Source: Siphonodentalium dalli (Eukaryota > Mollusca > Scaphopoda > Gadilida > Siphonodentaliidae). Taken from it: a stretch of 64,000 nucleotides of DNA. Below the pieces are notes generated by a model. The model saw only the letters and a program-made list of their open reading frames with translations. It was not told where the DNA came from and searched no databases. Made by a program: the position numbers and the translations under genes. Within the stretch, counting starts at the first letter, position 1, and each line of letters starts with the position of its first letter. The DNA is taken from NCBI GenBank assembly GCA_032622095.1, contig CP136069.1, positions 106,792,278 through 106,856,277 on the forward strand, given 5' to 3'. Shown one piece after another: positions 4,500 to 56,272 of the stretch.

Positions 4500-5062
4500 G
4501 ACATACATATATAGGTATCCCCACCACACACATATAGGTATCCTCACCACACACATATATAGGTATCCTCACCACACACATATATAGGTATCCCCGTCAC
4601 ATACATCTATAGGTATCACCACCACATACATCTATAGGTATCACCACCACATACATCTATATATATCCCCACCACATACATATATAGGTATCCCCACCAC
4701 ATACATATATAGGTATCCCCGCCACACACATCTATAGGTATACTCACCACACACATATATAGGTATCCCCACCACATACATCTATAGGTATCCCCACCAC
4801 ACACATATATAGGTATCCCCACCACACACATATATAGGTATCCCCACCACATACATCTATAGGTATCCCCACCACACACATATAGGTATACCCGCCACAC
4901 ACATCTATAGGTATCACCACCACATACATCTATAGGTATCACCACCACATACATCTATAGGTATCTCCACCACATACATATAAAGGTATCCCCACCACAT
5001 ACATCTATAGGTATCCCCGCCACACACATCTATAGGTATCCTCATCACACACATATATAGGT
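4492..5062. repeat. 0.57-kb module S, second copy
   Basis: Same ordered unit variants as 2,640-3,210, with TATATATCCCC near 4,662 in place of TATAGATATCCCC. Homology with the next copy ends near 5,062, at the transition to the TAACCCC unit. The right half of this copy lies inside the first 2.98-kb block. Confidence 0.75.
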
Positions 5063-7832
5063 AACCCCACCACATACATCTATTGGTATCCCCACCATAC
5101 ACATCTATATGTATCACCGCCACACTCATATATAGGTATCCGCACCACATACATCTATAGGTATCACCACCACATACATATATAGGTATCCCCACCACAT
5201 ACATCTATAGGTATCCCCACCACACACATCTATATGTATCACCACCACATACATATATAGGTATCCCCACCACACACATATATAGGTATCCCCACGACAT
5301 ACATATATAGGTATCCCCACCAAACACATATAGGTATCCTCACCACACACATATATAGGTATCCTCACCACACACATATATAGGTATCCCCGTCACATAC
5401 ATCTATAGGTATCACCACCACATACATCTATAGGTATCACCACCACATACATCTATAGATATCCCCACCACATACATATATAGGTATCCCCACCACATAC
5501 ATCTATAGGTATCCCCGCCACACACATCTATAGGTATCCTCACCACACACATATATAGGTATCCCCACCACATACATCTATAGGTATCCCCACCACACAC
5601 ATATATAGGTATCCCCACCACACACATATATAGGTATCCCCACCACATACATCTATAGGTATCCCCACCACACACATATAGGTATACCCGCCACACACAT
5701 ATATAGGTATCACCAACACATACATCTATAGGTATCACCACCACATACATCTATAGGTATCTCCACCACATACATATATAGGTATCCCCACCACATACAT
5801 CTATAGGTATCCCCGCCACACACATCTATAGGTATCCTCACCACACACATATATAGGTATCCCCACCACATACATCTATATGTATCCCCACCACACACAT
5901 CTATAGGTATTACCACCACATACATCTATAGGTATCACCACCACATACATCTATAGGTATACATACCACATACATCTATAGGTATCACCACCACATACAT
6001 CTATAGGTATCCTCACCACACACATATATAGGTATCCCCGCCACATACATATATAGGTATCCCCACCACATACATCTATAGGTATCACCACCACATACAT
6101 ATATTTGTATCCCTACCACATACATCTATTGGTAAACCCACCACATACATATATAGGTATCCCCACCACATATATCTATAGGTATCCCCACCACACACAT
6201 ATATATGTATCAACACCACACACATATATAGGTATCACCACCACATACATCTATAGGTATCCCCACCACATACATCTATGGGTATTCCCGACACATACAT
6301 ATATAGGTATCCCCACCACACACATATATAGGTATCCCCACCACATACATATATAGGTATCCTCGCCACACACATCTATAGGTATCACCACCACACACAT
6401 ATATACGTATCACCACCACACACATCTATATGAATCACCACCACATACATATATAGGTATTCCCAACACATACATATATAGGTATCCCCACCTCATACAT
6501 CTATAGGTATCCCCGCCAGACACATCTATAGGTATCACCACCACACACATCTATAGGTATCACCACCACATACATATATAGGTACCCCACCACATGCATA
6601 TATAGGTATCCACACCACATACATATATAGGTATCCCCGCCACACACATATATAGGTATCACCACCGCATATATATATAGGTATCCCCACCACATACATC
6701 TATATGTCTCTCCACCACACACATCTATAGTATCCCCACCACACACATCTATAGGTATCCCCGCCACACACATATATAGGTATCCCCACCCCATATATAT
6801 ATAGGTATCCCCACCACATACATCTATAGGTATCCCCACCACATACATATATAGGTATCACCACCACATTCATATATAGGTATCCCCGCCACATACATAT
6901 ATAGGTATCCTCACCACATACATATATAGGTATCCTCACCACACATCTATAGGTATCCTCACCATACACATATATAGGTATCCCCACCACATACATATAT
7001 AGGTATCCCCGCCACACACATATATAGGTATCCCCACCACACACATATATAGATATCCCCACCACACACATATATAGGTATCACCACCACATACATATAT
7101 AGGTATCCCAACCACATACATATATAGGTATCCCCACCACATACATATATAGGTATCCCCACGACATACATATATAGGTATCCCCACCACATACATATAT
7201 AGGTATCACCACCACACACATCTATAGGTATCCCCACCACATACATCTATATGTATCCCCACCACAAACATCTATAGATATCCCCACCACATACATATAT
7301 AGGTATCCCCACCACATACATATATAGGTATCCCCACCACATACATATAAAGGTATCACCACCACACACATATATAGGTATCCCCACCCATACATCTATA
7401 GGTATCCCCACCAGATACATCTATAGGTATCCCCACAACATACATATATAGGTATCCCCACCACACATCTATAGGTATCACCACCACATACATATATATG
7501 TATCACCACCACACACATATAGGTATCCCCACCACACACATATATAGGTATCCCCACCACACACAAATATAGGTATCCCCACCACATACATATATAGGTC
7601 TCCCCACCACATACATCTAGAGGTATCCCCACCACACACATCTATATGTATCCCCACCACACACATATATAGGTATCCCCACCACATACATCTATATGTA
7701 TCCCCACCACACACATATATAGGTATCCCCACCACATACATCTATAGGTATCCCCACCACATACATCTATAGGTATCCCCACCACACACATATAGGTATC
7801 CCCGCCACACACATCTATAGGTATCACCTCCA
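4850..7832. repeat. 2.98-kb higher-order repeat, copy 1
   Basis: The variant string beginning at GGTATACCCGCC near 4,886 recurs 2,983 bp downstream, near 7,869. The same offset holds through the TTTGTATCCC unit (6,104 and 9,087), the CTATGGGTATTCCCG unit (6,278 and 9,261), the CGTATCACC unit (6,405 and 9,388) and the CCCATAC short unit. After about 7,390 the offset is 2,978, because small indels near 9,660-9,740 changed the second copy. Confidence 0.88.
5286..5858. repeat. 0.57-kb module S, third copy
   Basis: This copy lies 796 bp after the second and carries a private CCCCACCAAACAC unit near 5,320. That private change is also in the fourth copy at 8,269-8,841, so the fourth derives from this one through the 2.98-kb duplication. 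Confidence 0.75.
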
Positions 7833-10830
7833 CATACATCTATAGGTATCCCCACCACACACATATAGGTATACCCGCCACACACATCTATAGGTATCAC
7901 CACCACATACATCTATAGGTATCACCACCACATACATCTATAGGTATCTCCACCACATACATATAAAGGTATCCCCACCACATACATCTATAGGTATCCC
8001 CGCCACACACATCTATAGGTATCCTCATCACACACATATATAGGTAACCCCACCACATACATCTATTGGTATCCCCACCATACACATCTATATGTATCAC
8101 CGCCACACTCATATATAGGTATCCGCACCACATACATCTATAGGTATCACCACCACATACATATATAGGTATCCCCACCACATACATCTATAGGTATCCC
8201 CACCACACACATCTATATGTATCACCACCACATACATATATAGGTATCCCCACCACACACATATATAGGTATCCCCACGACATACATATATAGGTATCCC
8301 CACCAAACACATATAGGTATCCTCACCACACACATATATAGGTATCCTCACCACACACATATATAGGTATCCCCGTCACATACATCTATAGGTATCACCA
8401 CCACATACATCTATAGGTATCACCACCACATACATCTATAGATATCCCCACCACATACATATATAGGTATCCCCACCACATACATCTATAGGTATCCCCG
8501 CCACACACATCTATAGGTATCCTCACCACACACATATATAGGTATCCCCACCACATACATCTATAGGTATCCCCACCACACACATATATAGGTATCCCCA
8601 CCACACACATATATAGGTATCCCCACCACATACATCTATAGGTATCCCCACCACACACATATAGGTATACCCGCCACACACATATATAGGTATCACCAAC
8701 ACATACATCTATAGGTATCACCACCACATACATCTATAGGTATCTCCACCACATACATATATAGGTATCCCCACCACATACATCTATAGGTATCCCCGCC
8801 ACACACATCTATAGGTATCCTCACCACACACATATATAGGTATCCCCACCACATACATCTATAGGTATCCCCACCACACACATCTATAGGTATTACCACC
8901 ACATACATCTATAGGTATCACCACCACATACATCTATAGGTATACATACCACATACATCTATAGGTATCACCACCACATACATCTATAGGTATCCTCACC
9001 ACACACATATATAGGTATCCCCACCACATACATATATAGGTATCCCCACCACATACATCTATAGGTATCACCACCACATACATATATTTGTATCCCTACC
9101 ACATACATCTATTGGTAACCCCACCACATACATATATAGGTATCCTCACCACATATATCTATAGGTATCCCCACCACACACATATATATGTATCAACACC
9201 ACACACATATATAGGTATCACCACCACATACATCTATAGGTATCCCCACCACATACATCTATGGGTATTCCCGACACATACATATATAGGTATCCCCACC
9301 ACACACATATATAGGTATCCCCACCACATACATATATAGGTATCCTCGCCACACACATCTATAGGTATCACCACCACACACATATATACGTATCACCACC
9401 ACACACATCTATATGAATCACCACCACATACATATATAGGTATTCCCAACACATACATATATAGGTATCCCCACCTCATACATCTATAGGTATCCCCGCC
9501 AGACACATCTATATGTATCACCACCACACACATCTATAGGTATCACCACCACATACATATATAGGTACCCCACCACATACATATATAGGTATCCACACCA
9601 CATACATATATAGGTATCCCCGCCACACACATATATAGGTATCACCACCGCATATATATATAGGTATCCCCACCGCATATATATATATGTCTCTCCACCA
9701 CACACATCTATATGTCTCTCCACCACACACATCTATAGTATCCCCACCACACACATATATAGGTATCCCCACCCCATATATATATAGGTATCCCCACCAC
9801 ATACATCTATAGGTATCCCCACCACATACATATATAGGTATCACCACCACATTCATATATAGGTATCCCCGCCACATACATATATAGGTATCCTCACCAC
9901 ATACATATATAGGTATCCTCACCACACATCTATAGGTATCCTCACCACACATCTATAGGTATCCCCACCACATACATATATAGGTATCCCCGCCACACAC
10001 ATATATAGGTATCCCCACCACACACATATATAGATATCCCCACCACACACATATATAGGTATCACCACACACATATATAGGTATCCCAACCACATACATA
10101 TATAGGTATCCCCACCACATACATATATAGGTATCCCCACGACATACATATATAGGTATCCCCACCACATACATATATAGGTATCACCACCGCACACATC
10201 TATAGGTATCCCCACCACATACATCTATATGTATCCCCACCACAAACATCTATAGATATCCCCACCACATACATATATAGGTATCCCCACCACATACATA
10301 TATAGGTATCCCCACCACATACATATAAAGGTATCACCACCACACACATATATAGGTATCCCCACCCATACATCTATAGGTATCCCCACCAGATACATCT
10401 ATAGGTATCCCCACAACATACATATATAGGTATCCCCACCACACATCTATAGGTATCACCACCACATACATATATATGTATCACCACCACACACATATAG
10501 GTATCCCCACCACACACATATATAGGTATCCCCACCACACACAAATATAGGTATCCCCACCACATACATATATAGGTCTCCCCACCACATACATCTAGAG
10601 GTATCCCCACCACACACATCTATATGTATCCCCACCACACACATATATAGGTATCCCCACCACATACATCTATATGTATCCCCACCACACACATATATAG
10701 GTATCCCCACCACATACATCTATAGGTATCCCCACCACATACATCTATAGGTATCCCCACCACACACATATAGGTATCCCCGCCACACACATCTATAGGT
10801 ATCACCTCCACATACATCTATAGGTATCCC
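7833..10830. repeat. 2.98-kb higher-order repeat, copy 2
   Basis: Tandem copy of 4,850-7,832. It differs by a local rearrangement near 9,650-9,740, where a TCTCTCCACC unit is doubled and units rich in TATATATATA appear. One unit near 9,945 has also changed. The copy includes the fourth 0.57-kb module S at about 8,269-8,841. Its match to copy 1 ends near 10,830, where it continues with CATACATC units instead of the GGTATACCCGCC unit. Confidence 0.88.
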
Positions 10831-23632: not shown

Positions 23633-26600
23633 CCCACCACATAAATCTATAGGTATCCCCACCACACACATCTATATGTATCACCACCGCATACATATAT
23701 AGGTATCCCCACCACACACAGATATAGGTATCCCACCACATACATATATAGGTATCCCCACCACACACATATAGGTATCCTCACCACACACATAAATTAT
23801 ATAGGTACTCTCACCACACACATATATAGGTATCCCCGCCACATACATCTATAGGTATCCCCACGACATACATATATAGGTATCCCCACCACATACATAT
23901 ATAGGTATCACCACCACACACATCTATAGGTATCCCAACCACATACATCTATATGTATCCCCACCACAAACATCTATAGATATCCCCAACACATACATAT
24001 ATAGGTATCCCCACCACATACATATATAGGTATCCCCACCACATACACATATAGTTATCCCCGCCACACACATATATAGGTATCACCACCACACACATAT
24101 ATAGGTATCCCCACCACATACATATATAGGTATCACCATCACACACATATATAGGTATCCCCACCACATACATATATTGGTATCCCACCACATACATCTA
24201 TAGGTATCCCCACCGCACACATATATAGGTATCCCCATCACATACATACATAGGTATCCCCACCACATACATATATAGGTATCCCCACCACATACATCTA
24301 TATGTATCCCCACCACACACATATATAGGTATCCCCACCACATACATATATAGGTATCCCCACCACATACATATATAGGTATCCCCACCACATACATCTA
24401 TATGTATCCCCACCACATACATATATAGGTATCCCCACCACATACATCTATAGGTATCCCCACCACATACATATATAGGTATCCCCCACCACATACATAT
24501 ATAGGTATCCCCACCACATACATATATAGGTATCCCCACCACATACATATATAGGTATCCCCACCACATACATCTATAGGTATCCCCACCACACACATCT
24601 ATATGTTTCACCACCACACACATCTATAGGTATCACCACCAAACACATATATAGGTATCTCCACCATACACATCAATATGTATCACCGCCACACACATAT
24701 ATAGGTACCCCCCACCACATACATCTATAGGTATCCCCACCATACACATCTATAGGTATCCCCACCATACACATCTATATGTATAACCGCCACACTCATA
24801 TATAGTTATCCCCACCACATACATCTATAGGTATCACCACCACATACATATATAGGTATCCCCACCACATTAATCTATAGGTATCCCCACCACACACATC
24901 TATATGTATCACCACCACATACATATATAGGTATCCCCACCACACACATATATAGGTACCCCACCACATACATATATAGGTATCCCCACCACACACATAT
25001 AGGTATCCTCACCACACACATATATAGGTATCCTCACCACACACATATATAGGTATCCCCGCCACATACATCTATAGGTATCACCACCACATACATCTAT
25101 AGTTATCACCACCACATACATATATAGGTATCCCCGCCACATACATATATAGGTATCACCACCATACACATCTATAGGTATCCCCGCCACACACATCTAT
25201 AGGTATCCCCACCACACACATATATAGGTATCCCCACCACATACATATATAGGTATCACCACCACACACATATAAGTATCCCCGCCACATACATATAGGT
25301 ATCCCCACCACACACATATAGGTATCCCCACCACACACATATATAGGTATCACCTCCACATACATATAGAGGTACCCCCAACACATACATATATAGGTAT
25401 CCCCACCACATACATATATAGGTATCCCCACCACATACATATATAGTTATCCCCGCCACACACATATATAGGTATCCCCACCACACACATATATAGGTAT
25501 CCCCACCACATACATATATAGGTATCACCATCACACACAAATATAGGTATCCCCACCACATACATATATTGGTATCCCACCACATACATCTATAGGTATC
25601 CCCACCGCACACATATATTGGTATCCCACCACATACATCTATAGGTATCCCCACCGCACACATATATAGGTATCCCCATCACATACATACATAGGTATCC
25701 CCACCACATACATATATAGGTATCCCCCACCACATACATCTATATGTATCCCCACCACACACATATATAGGTATCCCACCACATACATATATAGGTATCC
25801 CCACCACATACATATATAGGTATCCCCACCACATACATCTATATGTATCCCCACCACATACATATATAGGTATCCCCACCACATACATCTATAGGTATCC
25901 CCACCACATACATATATAGGTATCCCCACACATACATTTATAGGTATCCCCACCACATACATATATAGGTATCCCCACCACATACATATATAGGTATCCC
26001 CACCACATACATCTATAGGTATCCCCACCACACACATCTATATGTATCACCACCACACACATCTATAGGTATCCCCACCAAACACATATATAGGTATCCC
26101 CACCATACACATCAATATGTATCACCGCCACACACATATATAGGTAACCCCACCACATACATCTATAGGTATCCCCACCATACACATCTATAGGTATCCC
26201 CACCATACACATCTATATGTATAACCGCCACATTCATATATAGTTATTCCCACCACATACATCTATAGGTATCACCACCACATACATATATAGGTATCCC
26301 CACCACATAAATCTATAGGTATCCCCACCACACACATCTATATGTATCACCACCACATACATATATAGGTATCCCCACCACACACATATATAGGTATCCC
26401 ACCACATACATATATAGGTATCCCCACCACACACATATAGGTATCCTCACCACACACATAAATTATATAGGTATCCTCACCACACACATATATAGGTATC
26501 CCCGCCACATACATATATAGGTATCCCCACGACATACATATATAGGTATCCCCACCACATACATATATAGGTATCACCACCACACACATCTATAGGTATC

Positions 26601-27250
26601 CCAACCACATACATATATATGTATCCCCACCACAAACATCTATAGATATCCCCACCACATACATATATAGGTATCCCCACCACATACATCTATAGGTATC
26701 CCCACCACATACATATATAGGTATCACCACCACACACATATATAGGTATCCCCACCCTTACGTCTATAGGTATCTCCACCAGATACATCTATAGGTATCC
26801 CCACCACATACATATATAGGTATCCCCACCACACATCTATAGGTATCACCACCACATACATATATAGGTATCACCACCACACACATATAGGTATCCCCAC
26901 CACACACATATATAGGAATCCCCACCACACACAAATATAGGTATCCCCACCACATACATATATAGGTCTCCCCACCACATACATCTAGAGGTATCCCCAC
27001 CACACACATCTATATGTATCCCCACCACACACATATATAGGTATCCCCACCACATACATCTATATGTATCCCCACCACACACATATATAGGTATCCCCAC
27101 CACATACATCTATAGGTATCCCCACCACATACATCTATAGGTATCCCCACCACACACATATAGGTATCCCCGCCACACACATCTATAGGTATCACCTCCA
27201 CATACATCTATAGGTATCCCCACCACATACATCTATAGGTATCCCCACCA
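23633..27250. repeat. 3.6-kb higher-order repeat, copy 2
   Basis: Tandem copy of 20,150-23,632. In its last part the offset rises to 3,611 bp because about five extra units lie near 26,550-26,760. It holds one-base C insertions near 24,483, 24,708 and 25,724, and private units CCCTTACGTC near 26,757 and CACATTTATAGG near 25,936. Confidence 0.83.
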
Positions 27251-27339
27251 CATACATCTATAGGTATCCCCACCACACACATATAGGTATCCCCGCCACA
27301 TACATCTATAGGTATCCCCACCACATTCATCTATAGGTA

Positions 27340-29860
27340 TCCCCACCATACACATCTATAGGTATCCCCACCATACACATCTATATGTATAACCGCCACA
27401 CTCATATATAGGTATCCCCACCACATACATCTATAGGTATCACCACCACATACATATATAGGTATCCCCACCACATTAATCTATAGGTATCCCCACCACA
27501 CACATCTATATGTATCACCACCACATACATATATAGGTATCCCCACCACACACATATATAGGTATCCCACCACATACATATATAGGTATCCCCACCACAC
27601 ACATATAGGTATCCTCACCACACACATATATAGATATCCTAACCACACACATATATAGGTATCCCCGCCACATACATCTATAGGTATCACCACCACATAC
27701 ATCTATAGTTATCACCACCACATACATATATAGGTATTCCCGCCACATACATATATAGGTATCACCACCATACACATCTATAGGTATCCCCGCCACACAC
27801 ATCTATAGGTATCCCCACCACACACATATATAGGTATCCCCACCACATACATATATAGGTATCACCACCACACACATATAAGTATCCCCGCCACATACAT
27901 ATAGGTATCCCCACCACACACATATAGGTATCCCCACCACACACATATATAGGTATCACCTCCACATACATATAGAGGTATCCCCAACACATACATATAT
28001 AGGTATCCCCACCACATACATATATAGGTATCCCCACCACATACATATATAGTTATCCCCGCCACACACATATATAGGTATCCCCACCACACACATATAT
28101 AGGTATCCCCACCACATACATATATAGGTATCACCATCACACACAAATATAGGTATCCCCACCACATACATATATTGGTATCCCACCACATACATCTATA
28201 GGTATCCCCACCGCACACATATATTGGTATCCCACCACATACATCTATAGGTATCCCCACCGCACACATATATAGGTATCCCCATCACATACATACATAG
28301 GTATCCCCACCACATACATATATAGGTATCCCCACCACATACATCTATATGTATCCCCACCACACACATATATAGGTATCCCACCACATACATATATAGG
28401 TATCCCCACCACATACATATATAGGTATCCCCACCACATACATCTATATGTATTCCCACCACATACATATATAGGTATCCCCACCACATACATATATAGG
28501 TATCCCCACCACATACATATATAGGTATCCCCACACATACATTTATAGGTATCCCCACCACATACATATATAGGTATCCCCACCACATACATATATAGGT
28601 ATCCCCCACCACATACATCTATAGGTATCCCCACCACACACATCTATATGTATCACCACCTCACACATCTATAGGTTATCCCCACCAAACACATATATAG
28701 GTATCCCCACCATACACATCAATATGTATCACCGCCACACACATATATAGGTAACCCCACCACATACATCTATAGGTATCCCCCACCATACACATCTATA
28801 GGTATCCCCACCATACACATCTATATGTATAACCGCCACATTCATATATAGTTATCCCCACCACATACATCTATAGGTATCACCACCACATACATATATA
28901 GGTATCCCCACCACATAAATCTATAGGTATCCCCACCACACACATCTATATGTATCACCACCACATACATATATAGGTATCCCACCACACACATATATAG
29001 GTATCCCACCACATACATATATAGGTATCCCCACCACACACATATAGGTATCCTCACCACACACATAAATTATATAGGTATCCTCACCACACACATATAT
29101 AGGTATCCCCGCCACATACATATATAGGTATCCCCACGACATACATATATAGGTATCCCCACCACATACATATATAGGTATCACCACCACACACATCTAT
29201 AGGTATCCCAACCACATACATATATATGTATCCCCACCACAAACATCTATAGATATCCCCACCACATACATATATAGGTATCCCCACCACATACATCTAT
29301 AGGTATCCCCACCACATACATATATAGGTATCACCACCACACACATATATAGGTATCCCCACCCTTACGTCTATAGGTATCTCCACCAGATACATCTATA
29401 GGTATCCCCACCACATACATATATAGGTATCCCCACCACACATCTATAGGTATCACCACCACATACATATATAGGTATCACCACCACACACATATAGGTA
29501 TCCCCACCACACACATATATAGGAATCCCCCACCACACACAAATATAGGTATCCCCACCACATACATATATAGGTCTCCCCCACCACATACATCTAGAGG
29601 TATCCCCACCACACACATCTATATGTATCCCCACCACACACACATATATAGGTATCCCCACCACATACATCTATATGTATCCCCACCACACACATATATA
29701 GGTATCCCCACCACATACATCTATAGGTATCCCCCACCACATACATCTATAGGTATCCCCACCACACACATATAGGTATCCCCGCCACACACATCTATAG
29801 GTATCACCTCCACATACATCTATAGGTATCCCCACCACATACATCTATAGGTATCCCCAC
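27340..29860. repeat. 2.6-kb higher-order repeat, copy 3 (shortened)
   Basis: Matches 24,734-27,250 at an offset of about 2,606 bp and inherits the private CCCTTACGTC unit (near 29,364) and the CACATTTATAGG unit (near 28,540). It therefore descends from copy 2 rather than copy 1. The right half contains an unusual density of five-C tracts and other one-base insertions. Confidence 0.8.
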
Positions 29861-30530
29861 CACATACATCTATAGGTATCCCCACCACACACATATAGGT
29901 ATCCCCGCCACACACATCTATAGGTATCCCCACCACATTCATCTATAGGTATCCCCACCACACAAATATATAGGTATCACCACCACATACATATATAGGT
30001 ATCACCGCCACAGACATATATAGGTATTCCCGCCACATACATATATAGGTATCCTCACCACACACATCTATAGGTATCCCCACCACACACATATATAGGT
30101 ATCCCCACCACACACATCTATAAGTATCCCCACCACATACATCTATAGGTATCCCCACCACACACATCTATAGGTATCCCCACCACACACATATATAGGT
30201 ATCACCACCACGTACATATATAGGTATCCCCGCCACACACATATATAGGTATCCCCACCACACACATATATATAGGTATCCCCGCCACACACATATATAG
30301 GTATCCCCCACCACATACATATATAGATATCACCACCACATACATATATAGGTATCCTCACCACACACATCTATAGGTATCCACACCACACACATATATA
30401 GGTATCCCCACCACACACATCTATAAGTATCCCCACCACATACATATATAGGTATCCCCCACCACATACATATATAAGTATCCCCGCCACATACATATAT
30501 AGGTATCCCCACCACATACATATATAGGTA
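28785..30530. repeat. 1.74-kb tandem repeat, copy 1 (rich in one-base insertions)
   Basis: This stretch is followed directly by a near copy at an offset of 1,743-1,754 bp. Landmarks are the CATTC/CACTC unit after TATAACCGCC (28,839 and 30,585), the AAATTATATA unit (29,066 and 30,821), CCCTTACGTC (29,364 and 31,118), the CTAGAGG unit and the GGTATCCACACC unit (30,379 and 32,121). Five-C tracts such as those at 29,527 and 29,578 are four C in the second copy. Confidence 0.8.
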
Positions 30531-32273
30531 TCCCCACCATACACATCTATAGGTATCCCCCACCATACACATCTATATGTATAACCGCCACACTCATATA
30601 TAGTTATCCCCACCACATACATCTATAGGTATCACCACCACATACATATATAGGTATCCCCCACCACATAAATCTATAGGTATCCCCACCACACACATCT
30701 ATATGTATCACCACCACATACATATATAGGTATCCCCACCACACACATATATAGGTATCCCACCACATACATATATAGGTATCCCCACCACACACATATA
30801 GGTATCCTCACCACACACATAAATTATATAGGTATCCTCACCACACACATATATAGGTATCCCCGCCACATACATATATAGGTATCCCCACGACATACAT
30901 ATATAGGTATCCCCACCACATACATATATAGGTATCACCACCACACACATCTATAGGTATCCCAACCACATACATATATATGTATCCCCACCACAAACAT
31001 CTATAGATATCCCCACCACATACATATATAGGTATCCCCACCACATACATCTATAGGTATCCCCACCACATACATATATAGGTATCACCACCACACACAT
31101 ATATAGGTATCCCCACCCTTACGTCTATAGGTATCTCCACCAGATACATCTATAGGTATCCCCACCACATACATATATAGGTATCCCCACCACACATCTA
31201 TAGGTATCACCACCACATACATATATAGGTATCACCACCACACACATATAGGTATCCCCACCACACACATATATAGGAATCCCCACCACACACAAATATA
31301 GGTATCCCCACCACATACATATATAGGTCTCCCCACCACATACATCTAGAGGTATCCCCACCACACACATCTATATGTATCCCCACCACACACATATATA
31401 GGTATCCCCACCACATACATCTATATGTATCCCCACCACACACATATATAGGTATCCCATACATCTATAGGTATCCCCACCACATACATCTATAGGTATC
31501 CCCACCACACACATATAGGTATCCCCGCCACACACATCTATAGGTATCACCTCCACATACATCTATAGGTATCCCCACCACATACATCTATAGGTATCCC
31601 CACCACATACATCTATAGGTATCCCCACCACACACATATAGGTATCCCCGCCACACACATCTATAGGTATCCCCACCACATTCATCTATAGGTATCCCCA
31701 CCACACAAATATATAGGTATCACCACCACATACATATATAGGTATCACCGCCACAGACATATATAGGTATTCCCGCCACATACATATATAGGTATCCTCA
31801 CCACACACATCTATAGGTATCCCCACCACACACATATATAGGTATCCCCACCACACACATCTATAGGTATCCCCACCACATACATCTATAGGTATCCCCA
31901 CCACACACATCTATAGGTATCCCCACCACACACATATATAGGTATCACCACCACGTACATATATAGGTATCCCCGCCACACACATATATAGGTATCCCCA
32001 CCACACACATATATATAGGTATCCCCGCCACACACATATATAGGTATCCCCACCACATACATATATAGGTATCACCACCACATACATATATAGGTATCCT
32101 CACCACACACATCTATAGGTATCCACACCACACACATATATAGGTATCCCCACCACACACATCTATAAGTATCCCCACCACATACATATATAGGTATCCC
32201 CACCACATACATATATAAGTATCCCCGCCACATACATATATAGGTATCCCCACCACATACATATATAGGTATC
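30531..32273. repeat. 1.74-kb tandem repeat, copy 2
   Basis: Second copy of 28,785-30,530. It lacks nearly all the one-base C insertions beyond 30,662. It has a private six-base loss near 31,451, where GGTATCCCATACATC replaces a full unit. Later parts recur again about 2.04-2.2 kb further on (31,125 matches 33,165; 32,113 matches 34,309), so this tract belongs to the same expanding family. Confidence 0.8.
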
Positions 32274-34194
32274 CACGCCACACACATATATAGGTATCCC
32301 CACCACACACATATATAGGTATCCCCACGAAACACATATATAGGTATCCCCACCACATACATATATAGGTCTCCCCACCACATACATGTATAGGTATCCC
32401 CACCACATACATATATAGTTATCCCCGCCACACACATATATAGGTATTACCGCCACATACATATATAGGTATCCTCACCACACACATCTATAGGTATCCC
32501 CACCACATACATATATAGGTATCACCACCACATACATATATAGGTATCCCCACCACACACATATATAGGTATCCCCGCCACATACATATATATAGGTATC
32601 CCCGCCACACACATATATAGGTATCCCCACCAAATACATATATAGGTATCACCACCACATACATATATAGGTATCCTCACCACACACATCTATAGGTATC
32701 CCCACCACACACATATATAGGTATCCCCACCACATACATATATAGGTATCCCCACCACATAAATCTATAGGTATCCCCACCACACACATCTATATGTATC
32801 ACCACCACATACATATATAGGTATCCCCACCACACACATATATAGGTATCCCACCACATACATATATAGGTATGCCCACCACACACATATAGGTATCCTC
32901 ACCACACACATAAATTATATAGGTATCCTCACCACACACATATATAGGTATCCCCGCCACATACATCTATAGGTATCCCCACGACATACATATATAGGTA
33001 TCCCCACCACATACATATATAGGTATCACCACCACACACATCTATAGGTATCCCAACCACATACATATATATGTATCCCCACCACAAACATCTATAGATA
33101 TCCCACCACATACATATATAGGTATCACCACCACACACATATATAGGTATCCCCACCCATACATCTATAGGTATCCCCACCAGATACATCTATAGGTATC
33201 CCCACCACATACATATATAGGTATCCCCACCACACATCTATAGGTATCACCACCACATACATATATAGGTATCACCACCACACACATATAGGTATCCCCA
33301 CCACACACATATATAGGAATCCCCACCACACACAAATATAGGTATCCCCACCACATACATATATAGGTCTCCCCACCACATACATCTAGAGGTATCCCCA
33401 CCACACACATCTATATGTATCCCCACCACACACATATATAGGTATCCCCACCACATACATCTATATGTATCCCCACCACATACATATATAGGTATCCCCA
33501 CCACATACATCTATAGGTATCCCCACCACATACATCTATAGGTATCCCCACCACACACATATAGGTATCCCCGCCACACACATCTATAGGTATCACCTCC
33601 ACATACATCTATAGGTATCCCCACCACATACATCTATAGGTATCCCCACCACATACATCTATAGGTATCCCCACCACACACATATAGGTATCCCCGCCAC
33701 ACACATCTATAGGTATCCCCACCACATTCATCTATAGGTATCCCCACCACACAAATATATAGGTATCACCACCACATACATATATAGGTATCCCCGCCAC
33801 AGACATATATAGGTATTCCCGCCACATACATATATAGGTATCCTCACCACACACATCTATAGGTATCCCCACCACACACATATATAGGTATCCCCACCAC
33901 ACACATCTATAGGTATCCCCACCACATACATCTATAGGTATCCCCACCACACACATCTATAGGTATCCCCACCACATACATATATAAGTATCCCCACCAA
34001 ATACATATATAGGTATCCCCACCACATACATATATAAGTATCCCCGCCACATACATATATAGGTATCCCCACCACATACATATATAGGTATCCCCGCCAC
34101 ACACATATATAGGTATCCCCACCACACACATATATAGGTATCCCCACGAAACACATATATAGGTATCCCCGCCACACACATATATAGGTATCCC

Positions 34195-37100
34195 CACCAC
34201 ACACATATATATAGGTATCCCCGCCACACACATATATAGGTATCCCCACCACATACATATATAGGTATCACCACCACATACATATATAGGTATCCTCACC
34301 ACACACATCTATAGGTATCCACACCACACACATATATAGGTATCCCCACCACACACATCTATAAGTATCCCCACCACATACATATATAGGTATCCCCACC
34401 ACATACATATATAAGTATCCCCGCCACATACATATATAGGTATCCCCACCACATACATATATAGGTATCCCCGCCACACACATATATAGGTATCCCCTCC
34501 ACACACATATATAGGTATCCCCACGAAACACATATATAGGTATTCCCACCACATACATATATAGGTCTCCCCACCACATACATGTATAGGTATCCCCACC
34601 ACATACATATATAGTTATCCCCGCCACACACATATATAGGTATTCCCGCCACATACATATATAGGTATCCTCACCACACACATCTATAGGTATCCCCACC
34701 ACATACATATATAGGTATCACCACCACATACATATATAGGTATCCCCACCACACACATATATAGGTATCCCCGCCACATACATATATAGGTATCACCACC
34801 ATACACATATATAGGTATCCCCACCACACACATATATATAGGTATCCCCGCCACACACATATATAGGTATCCCCACCACATACATATATAGGTATCACCA
34901 CCACATACATATATAGGTATCCTCACCACACACATCTATAGGTATCCCCACCACACACATATATAGGTATCCCCACCACACACATCTATAGGTATCCCCA
35001 CCACATACATATATAGGTATCCCCACGACATACATATATAAGTATCCCCGCCACATACATATATAGGTATCCCCACCACATACATATATAGGTATCCCCA
35101 CCACACACATATATAGGTATCCCCACCACACACATATATTGGTTTCCCCACCACACACATATATAGGTATCCCCACCACATACATATATAGGTCTCCCCA
35201 CCACATACATCTATAGGTATCCCCACCACACACATCTATATGTATCCCCACCACACACATATATAGGTATCACCACCACATACATATATAGGTATCCCCG
35301 CCACAAACATATATAGGTATTTCCGCCACATACATATATAGGTATCCTCACCACACAAATCTATAGGTATCACCACCACATACATATATAGGTATCACCA
35401 CCACATACATATATAGGTATCCCCACCACACATATATATAGGTATCCCCGCCACATACATATATAGGTATCACCACCATACACATCTATAGGTATCCCCG
35501 CCACACACATCTATAGGTATCCCCACCAGATACATATATAGGTATCCCCACCACACACATATATAGGTTATCCCCACCACATACATATATAGGTATCACC
35601 ACCACACACATATAAGTATCCCCGCCACATACATATAGGTATCCCCACAACACACATATAGGTATCCCCACCACACACATCTATAGGTATCACCTCCACA
35701 TACATATAGAGGTATCCCCAACACATACATATATAGGTATCCCCACCACATACATATATAGGTATCCCCACCACATACACATATAGTTATCCCCGCCACA
35801 CACATATATAGGTATCACCACCACACACATATATAGGTATCCCCACCACATACATATATAGGTATCACCATCACACACATATATAGGTATCCCCACCACA
35901 TACATATATAGGTATCACCATCACACACATATATAGGTATCCCCACCACATACATATATTGGTATCCCACCACATACATCTATAGGTATCCCCACCACAT
36001 ACATATATAGGTATCCCCACCACATACATCTATATGTATCCCCACCACACACATATATAGGTATCCCCACCACATACATCTATAGGTATCCCCACCACAT
36101 ACATATATAGGTATCCCCACCACATACATCTATATGTATCCCCACCACATACATATATAGGTATCCCCACCACATACATCTATAGGTATCCCCACCACAT
36201 ACATATATAGGTATCCCCACCACATACATCTATAGGTATCCCCACCACATACATATATAGGTATCCCCACCACATACATATATAGGTATCCCCACCACAT
36301 ACATCTATAGGTATCCCCACCACACACATCTATATGTATCACCACCACACACATCTATAGGTATCCCCACCAAACACATATATAGGTATCTCCACCATAC
36401 ACATCAATATGTATCACCGCCACACACATATATAGGTACCCCCACCACATACATCTATAGGTATCCCCACCATACACATCTATAGGTATCCCCACCATAC
36501 ACATCTATATGTATAACCGCCACACTCATATATAGGTATCCCCACCACATACATCTATAGGTATCACCACCACATACATATATAGGTATCCCCACCACAT
36601 TAATCTATAGGTATCCCCACCACACACATCTATATGTATCAGCACCACATACATATATAGGTATCCCCACCACACACATATATAGGTATCCCACCACATA
36701 CATATATAGGTATCCCCACCACACACATATAGGTATCCTCACCACACACATATATAGGTATCCTCACCACACACATATATAGGTATCCCCGCCACATACA
36801 TCTATAGGTATCACCACCACATACATCTATAGTTATCACCACCACATACATATATAGGTATCCCCGCCACATACATATATAGGTATCACCACCATACACA
36901 TCTATAGGTATCCCCGCCACACACATCTATAGGTATCCCCACCACATACATATATAGGTATCCCCACCACATACATATATAGGTATCACCACCACACACA
37001 TATAAGTATCCCCGCCACATACATATAGGTATCCCCACCACACACATATAGGTATCCCCACCACACACATCTATAGGTATCACCTCCACATACATATAGA

Positions 37101-52783: not shown

Positions 52784-54827
52784 GTATCACCACCACATAC
52801 ATATATAGGTATCCCGCCACACACATATATAGGTATTCCCGCCACACACATATATAGGTATTCCAGCCACATACATATATAGGTATCCTCACCACACACA
52901 TCTATAGGTATCCCCACCACATACATATATAGGTATCACCACCACATATATATATAGGTATCCCCACCACACACATATATAGGTATCCCCGCCACATACA
53001 TATATAGGTATCACCACCATACACATATATAGGTCTCCCCACCGCATACATCTATATGTATCCCAACCACACACATCTATATGTATCCCAACCACACGCA
53101 TCTATAGGTATCCCCACCACACACATATATAGGTATCCCCACCATACACATCTATAGGTATCCCCACCACACACATATATAGGTATCCCCACCACACACA
53201 TTTATATGTATCCCCACCACACACATATATAGGTATCCCCACCACATACATATAGAGGTATCCCCAACACATACATATATAGGTATCCCCACCACACACA
53301 TATATAGGTATCCCCACCACATACATATATAGTTATCCCCGCCACACACATATATAGATATCCCCAGCACACACATATATAGGTATCCCCACCACATACA
53401 TATATAGGTATCACCATCACACACATATATAGGTATCCCCACCACATACATATATTGGTATCCCACCACATACATCTATAGGTATCCCCACCGCACACAT
53501 ATATCGGTATCCCCATCACATACATATATAGGTATCCCCTCCACAAACATATATAGGTATCCCCACCACATACATCTATATGTATGCCCACCACACACAT
53601 ATATAGGTATCCCCACCACATACATCTATAGGTATCCCCACCACACACATATATAGGTATCCCCACCACATACATATATAGGTATCCCCACCACATACAT
53701 CTATATGTATCCCCACCACATACATATATAGGTATCCCCACCACATACATCTATAAGTATCCCCACCACATACATATATAGGTATCCCCACCACATACAT
53801 ATATAGGTATCCCCACCACATACATATATAGGTATCCCCACCACATACATATATAGGTATCCCCACCACATGCATCTATAGGTATCCCCACCACACACAT
53901 CTATATGTATCACCACCACACACATCTATAGGGATCCCCACCACACACATATATAGGTATCCCCACCACACACATCTATATGTATCCCCACCACACACAT
54001 ATATAGGTATCCCCACCACATACTTATATAGGTATCCCCACCATACACATCTATAGGTATCCCACCATACACATCTATATGTATCACCACCACACACATA
54101 TTTAGGTATCCCCACCACACACATGTATATGTATCCCCACCACACACATATATAGGTATCACCACCACATACATATATAGGTATCCCCGCCACACACATA
54201 TATAGGTATTCCCGCCACATACATATATAGGTATCCTCACCACACACATCTATAGGTATCCCCACCACACACATATATAGGTATCCCCACCACACACATC
54301 TATATGTATCCCCACCACACACATATATAGGTATCACCACCACATACATATATAGGTATCCAGGCCACACACATATATAGGTATTCCCGCTACATACATA
54401 TATAGGTATCCTCACCACACACATCTATATGTATCCCCACCACATACATATATAGGTATCACCACCACATACATATATAGGTATCCCCACCACACACATA
54501 TATAGGTATCCCCGCCACATACATCTATATGTATCCCAACCACACACATCTATATGTATCCCAACCACACGCATCTATAGGTATCCCCACCACACACATA
54601 TATAGGTATCCCACCATACACATCTATAGGTATCCCCACCACACACATATATAGGTATCCCCACCACACACATCTATATGTATCCCCACCACACACATAT
54701 ATAGGTATCCCCACCACACACAGATATAGGTATCCCCACCATACACATCAATATGTATCACCGCCACACACATATATAGGTATCCCCTCCACATACATAT
54801 ATAGGTATCCCCACCATACACATATAT

Positions 54828-55475
54828 AGGTCTCCCTGCCACATACATCTATAGGTATCACCAACACATACATCTATAGTTATCACCACCACATACATCT
54901 ATAGGTATCCCCACCACATACATCTATAGGTATCCCCACCACATACATCTATAGGTTTCCCCGCCACACACATCTATAGGTATCCTCACCACACACATAT
55001 ATAGGTATCCCCACCACATACATATATAGGTATCCCCACCACACACATATATATGTATCCCCACCACACACATATATAGGTATAACCACCACATACATAT
55101 ATAGGTATCCCCGCCACACACATATATAGGTATTCCCGCCACATACATATATAGGTATCCTCACCACACAAATCTATAGGTATCCCCACCACATACATAT
55201 ATAGGTATCACCACCACATACATATATAGGTATCCCCACCACACACATATATAGGTATCCCGCCACATACATATATAGGTATCACCACCATACACATATA
55301 TAGGTATCCCCACCGCATACATCTATATGTATCCCAACCACACACATCTATATGTATCCCAACCACACGCATCTATAGGTATCCCCACCACACACATATA
55401 TAGGTATCCCCACCATACACATCTATAGGTATCCCCACCACACACATATATAGGTATCCCCACCACACACATCAA
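54828..55475. repeat. 0.8-kb-spaced tandem duplication, copy 1
   Basis: From the GGTCTCCCTGCC unit at about 54,828 the unit order repeats 797 bp later with few differences. It includes GGTTTCCCCGCC (54,954 and 55,751), GGTATAACCACC (55,079 and 55,876) and the GGTATCCCGCC short unit. The match runs for about 645 bp. Confidence 0.87.
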
Positions 55476-55624
55476 TATGTATCACCACCACATACATATA
55501 TAGGTATCCCCACCACACACATATATAGGTATCCCCACCACATACATATATAGGTATCCCCACCACACACATATAGGTATCCTCACCACACACATATATA
55601 GGTATCCTCACCACACACATATAT

Positions 55625-56272
55625 AGGTCTCCCTGCCACATACATCTATAGGTATCACCAACACATACATCTATAGTTATCACCACCACATACATCTATA
55701 GGTATCCCCACCACATACATCTATAGGTATCCCCACCACATACATCTATAGGTTTCCCCGCCACACACATCTATAGGTATCCTCACCACACACATATATA
55801 GGTATCCCCACCACATACATATATAGGTATCCCCACCACACACATATATATGTATCCCCACCACACACATATATAGGTATAACCACCACATACATATATA
55901 GGTATCCCCGCCACACACATATATAGGTATTCCCGCCACATACATATATAGGTATCCTCACCACACAAATCTATAGGTATCCCCACCACATACATATATA
56001 GGTATCACCACCACATACATATATAGGTATCCCCACCACACACATATATAGGTATCCCGCCACATACATATATAGGTATCACCACAATACACATATATAG
56101 GTATCCCCACCGCATACATCTATATGTATCCCAACCACACACATCTATATGTATCCCAACCACACGCATCTATAGGTATCCCCACCACACACATATATAG
56201 GTATCCCCACCATACACATCTATAGGTATCCCCACCACACACATATATAGGTATCCCCACCACACACATCTA
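55625..56272. repeat. 0.8-kb-spaced tandem duplication, copy 2
   Basis: Second member of the 797-bp pair. It differs by a CCACAATAC unit near 56,085. The corresponding region of the right-hand long duplication (about 62.4-63.1 kb) contains this segment only once. Confidence 0.87.

Follow-up and report, generated by a model that had tools for sequence, protein, structure and literature searches.

Clustered private insertions in a 25-bp satellite array of Siphonodentalium dalli most likely mark a lower-quality consensus patch

Clustered one-base changes in an assembled tandem repeat may be set beside known assembly faults and known mutational processes. For HiFi reads, passages of the HiCanu paper (PMC7545148) give homopolymer length as the main error mode, name microsatellites as error-prone as well, and state that depth can fall at low-complexity sequence. 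Excerpts from PMC12621783 add that satellites may show low depth, and that places where the graph is broken can be patched from split nanopore alignments. False duplications, according to parts of PMC9516828, stem from haplotypes and, more rarely, from read errors. Break-induced replication in yeast, as described in passages of PMC3039667, raises frameshifts 2,800-fold at most, in reporters that include a four-A run, and the changes are mostly 1-bp losses; the reporter begins in the +1 frame there, so that single gains would be largely unscorable.

The window analysed here, that is, the whole 64,000-base stretch taken from contig CP136069.1, contains no N and consists of a single tandem array.

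1-64000, + strand: 25-bp satellite array with the unit GGTATCCCCACCACATACATATATA, about 2,570 units, uninterrupted, defined by TRF and by a split into units

TRF returned it as one row of period 25 with 2,570 copies and 87% matches, and the unit split yielded 2,571 units of 405 kinds. CCCC is the sole run in the consensus unit that exceeds two bases. The window gave no Rfam match at gathering thresholds, exact satellite patterns matched neither bacterial or archaeal contigs nor viral contigs, a 2.5-kb piece of the array compared with plasmids (where the low-complexity filter may have masked the query) remained unmatched, and a literature search by fragments of the unit produced no title on satellite DNA.

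The array is widely block-copied within itself: repeated 60-mers span 61,424 of its 64,000 bases, the longest exact repeats reach 1,034 bp, and block copies at spacings of at least 0.8 kb are common throughout. Large exact block copies of recent origin lie at 4847-8863 (1,034 bp at a distance of 2,983), 26298-31458 (800 bp at a distance of 4,361) and 54818-56085 (471 bp at a distance of 797). For each unit we took its 13-unit context, found the closest other places in the window, and compared the middle unit with the best of these; a place, or copy, was called close at a context distance of up to 6. This replaced whole-segment BLAST within the array, which is unfit for finding the true copy because many array registers align at about 89-92%. 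The distance from a context to its nearest other place has a median of 3 and a 95th percentile of 16. Self-copying thus gives most places near relatives in the same window, and these serve as a control by which shared and private variants can be told apart. The mean closest-copy distance is 3.4 at 4-44 kb, 6.8 at 44-64 kb and 6.3 at 0-4 kb, a pattern that would fit recent copying mainly in the middle-left part of the array (4-44 kb).

One tract of about 2 kb stands apart from its relatives.

28598-30662, + strand: suspect tract, which differs from its closest copies by nine C gains, one T gain, one CA gain and one C loss
28674-28699, + strand: 26-bp unit with an extra T (GGTTATCC); private, the T lying outside any run
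28976-28999, + strand: 24-bp unit with a private one-C loss (at 28981), the sole loss in the cluster
29624-29650, + strand: 27-bp unit with an extra CA; its 35-base flanks occur eight times without the CA and once with it

The preliminary description had reported nine five-C tracts here, and all are present within one base of the places it gave (28603, 28780, 29527, 29578, 29731, 30305, 30456, 30557 and 30658), each being a one-base gain; the GGTTATCC and the extra CA that it placed near 28,675 and 29,640 were likewise found, in the units at 28674 and 29624. It did not list the second GGTT unit, at 35566, or the unit at 28976 that has lost a C. Its estimate of about five insertion tracts elsewhere needs qualification: the window holds 21 tracts of at least five C, so that 12 lie outside the cluster, and the five that it named (2014, 24483, 24708, 25724 and 46481) are exactly those that lengthen their unit to 26 bp. 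Together with the nine in the cluster they make up the 14 of the 21 tracts that are one-base gains. We considered whether the seven others might be inherited insertions and rejected this: five (18560, 21224, 21890, 25375 and 36439) result from a substitution (GGTAC) that leaves the unit at its normal length, and two (622 and 1819) represent one shared variant in a shorter unit of about 22-23 bp. Units of 26 bp number 16 among the 2,571, of which 14 carry an extra C and two an extra T (28674 and 35566), and ten of the 16 lie inside 28,598-30,662.

This clustering exceeds chance. Nine of 21 tracts within 2,060 bp were reached in none of 20,000 shuffles (largest number, 7), and nine of 14 C gains within 2,056 bp in none of 50,000; the bounds of the cluster were set after the preliminary description had pointed to it, and the shuffles allowed any location but kept the observed width. 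Counted per tract of at least four C, gains amount to 9/57 inside and 5/1,650 outside (p = 4.8e-11), or 9/57 versus 12/1,650 when the seven other five-C tracts are included (p = 5.8e-9). When every context is admitted and each unit is compared with its closest copy, the whole window shows 22 single-C gains, nine in the cluster and 13 outside; eight of the 13 do not produce a five-C tract (19625, 26373, 37659, 38506, 51891, 57994, 60038 and 63976), and the one at 26373 is the reverse side of the C loss at 28981. Some private C gains may accordingly be real, given the 13 outside. Three of the five outside gains that form 26-bp units (24483, 24708 and 25724) fall within 1,242 bp at 24478-25744, a grouping picked post hoc and reached in 514 of 50,000 shuffles, and the one at 24708 sits on a tract that already had five C through substitution; this is possibly a second, milder patch, to which we attach little weight.

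All 16 of the 26-bp units show an indel relative to their closest copy, as opposed to 17 of the 248 units whose length is otherwise non-standard (19, 22, 23, 24, 27, 29 and 30 bp, with one 5-bp end piece excluded; p = 7e-17) and 22 of 2,306 units of 25 bp. A rare length class will more often be private by chance, a caveat answered in part by the classes of comparable rarity (22, 27 and 30 bp), where the proportion is 3/38. One 19-bp unit and two 29-bp units are also private. Each 26-bp unit has five best places listed, some of them distant or in shifted registers, and no 26-bp unit stands at any of these. At least one place at a distance of 6 or less is available for 14 of the 16; the units at 30451 and 30552, which hold the tracts at 30456 and 30557, have best distances of 19 and 15, and at these two tracts, which adjoin the duplication junction described below, the opposite copy of the duplication has four C. 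Where five C are due to substitution or to the shared variant, five C are still found in seven of eight places, the eighth being 24708, a GGTAC unit with another C. A five-C tract can thus persist and be copied in this array, and rapid five-C loss does not easily explain why copied +1 units are lacking.

The changes are also selective in kind. Among the 12 indels of the suspect tract, nine add a C to a C4 tract, and the others are the CA gain, the C loss and the T gain outside runs; no gain was called at its 102 CC or 68 GG runs. In contexts within distance 6, indels and substitutions stand at 10:4 inside versus 22:275 outside (odds ratio 31, p = 2e-8), and substitutions are fewer inside, with 4 in 73 units versus 275 in 1,903 (p = 0.026, treating substitution counts as units). 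Without the distance limit, the counts become 12 indels and seven substitutions in the 83 units of the cluster, against 44 indels and 628 substitutions in the 2,488 units outside it. Part of the suspect tract, the 550 bp at 28,981-29,530, is identical to two other places. Since substitutions are scarcer inside, indels are raised without any sign of age.

The suspect tract overlaps a 1.75-kb tandem duplication, the copy boundaries of which are approximate, having been inferred from the onset of substitutions.

about 28771-30533, + strand: duplication copy 1, from pairwise alignment, with six of the nine five-C tracts
about 30523-32275, + strand: duplication copy 2, with two of the nine five-C tracts in its first 140 bases and a private 6-bp loss at 31458
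30401-30603, + strand: duplication junction, where 13-unit contexts find nothing close in the rest of the window (best distance up to 21)

Alignment of the two copies shows three substitutions between them, together with eight C gains, of which copy 1 has six and copy 2 has two, the C loss, the CA gain and a 6-bp indel. The preliminary description had the cluster almost coinciding with copy 1, which does not hold: its left edge precedes copy 1 by about 170 bp and its right edge reaches about 130 bp into copy 2, with the tract at 28603 lying to the left of copy 1 and those at 30557 and 30658 inside copy 2. It had also described the second copy as having four C at the same places, and this is correct for the six five-C tracts of copy 1 and reversed at 30557 and 30658, where copy 2 has five C and copy 1 has four. 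The lone 19-bp unit of the window is probably the 6-bp loss of copy 2 at 31458. From 30,659 onward, 800 bp are identical to the sequence from 26,298 onward, so that the suspect tract ends sharply and the junction lies inside it.

Taken together, these data lead us to regard 28,598-30,662 as a lower-quality patch of consensus with local residual homopolymer error, in an otherwise more accurate assembly, with a probability of about 0.86; the insertion cluster, real in the sequence, is most likely absent from the genome itself. A local consensus defect had already been proposed in the preliminary description, and the proposal is well borne out, with nearly all changes being +1 in the only long homopolymer of the unit, private, and accompanied by no rise in substitutions. 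The cause would be an error of sequencing or consensus, and the source a segment of thin coverage. Probably the sequence of the patch derives from a single uncorrected long read or a handful of them, or else from a gap fill, so that residual homopolymer-length errors would survive; as CCCC is the only run above two bases in the consensus unit, such errors would appear mostly as +1 C. The twelve private indels in 2,065 bases amount to 0.58%, or about Q22, and the remaining 61.9 kb, with its six 26-bp units, comes to about 1 in 10,000, or about Q40, if +1 units only are counted and all are taken as errors; a patch from one or a few reads would yield such a contrast. Against an error stands the gain at 16% of roughly four-C runs, which is high even for poor consensus reads, as well as the excess of gains (11 of 12 indels), since a mixture of gains and losses might be expected. 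The base composition of the suspect tract is ordinary and thus offers no evident sequence cause for a drop in coverage.

The insertions might instead be genuine. Error-prone copying, by break-induced replication or template switching, could have made the duplication and left slippage insertions across its junction, as the position of the cluster over the junction at about 30.53 kb and the frameshift increase in yeast (PMC3039667) would allow, although the changes in that system, as far as its excerpted results go, are mainly 1-bp deletions. We consider this very unlikely. Contexts that lack a close copy form 44 groups in the array, of which 37, by thresholds set in this analysis, have clean flanks and resemble breakpoints; of the 14 C gains, seven lie within 1.5 kb of the place at 30.40-30.60 kb, and none to two near each of the other 36, making it the only one of the 37 with more than two. 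The two gains near the breakpoint-like place at 27.3 kb are members of the same cluster (28,598-30,662). With so many such places and the gains massed at one, the duplication is ordinary for this array, and insertions are not usual at its breakpoints. The narrower version, in which the nine five-C tracts all stem from one copying event of very low fidelity across a fresh junction at 30.53 kb, is highly improbable: a single event hitting 9 of 57 tracts needs about 16% per tract, to our knowledge far above any known rate, and the 26-bp units, all 16 of them, lack a 26-bp counterpart among their listed closest places. If it were true, the five-C tracts would be a visible trace of satellite expansion by break-induced or template-switching synthesis. 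Slow accumulation of real insertions in an old, mutation-prone segment is scarcely credible; single-C gains relative to the closest copy do occur elsewhere at a low rate, but an old segment should have raised substitutions, which are instead lower than elsewhere, and no +1 unit recurs among its listed closest places.

A different question is whether the duplication itself is false, with one locus or its two haplotypes entered twice in the assembly, on the first occasion with errors. Such a fault is compatible with local homopolymer error, and both can hold; we think it improbable, though by no means negligible. The preliminary description had raised a misjoin, and the case for it is weak and divided. 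In its favour, the context at the junction has no like elsewhere in the window and falls within the suspect tract, and false duplications through haplotypes, less often through read errors, are documented (in the part of PMC9516828 drawn on here). Copy 1 alone in the window carries two of the three substitutions (its bases at 30123 and 30327 appear in no other 41-mer context, whereas those of copy 2 there occur 4 and 22 times), and the 6-bp loss is confined to copy 2; these differences could be errors or alleles, and only the third substitution, at 28841, clearly marks copy 1 as a locus of its own: its base is found at 26233 and is absent from copy 2. Besides that base, the idea is opposed by the frequency of block copies from 0.8 kb upward, with 37 breakpoint-like places in the array, and by the extent of the cluster on both sides of the junction, which leaves no contig-end mark there, although an end-to-end join of two haplotypes would still fit. 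As far as comparison within the window can tell, the 1.75-kb duplication is probably real in the genome.

As an artefact, the patch matters for quality control only: studies of variation among satellite units should mask the roughly 2 kb, and, pending confirmation by reads, the 30.53-kb junction ought not to be taken as evidence of a duplication. In an array that copies itself, the test of private versus shared length variants can flag bad patches without reads.

Among the described systems, the suspect tract resembles residual homopolymer-length errors in long-read consensus, as characterised for HiFi in passages of PMC7545148, in that the changes occur in homopolymers or short tandem repeats, are locally clustered and are private; it differs in that the runs are only four bases long and almost all changes are gains. 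It is similar to the homotype and heterotype false duplications outlined in parts of PMC9516828 in having one copy that bears read-like errors, and dissimilar in that the errors span the junction, the base at 28841 is supported elsewhere and the window is free of N. With the mutation tracts of break-induced replication, as presented in excerpts of PMC3039667, it shares frameshift-type changes close to a rearrangement junction; in contrast to those, its changes are gains rather than losses, they affect 9 of 57 tracts, and nothing of the sort is seen at 36 other breakpoint-like places of the array.
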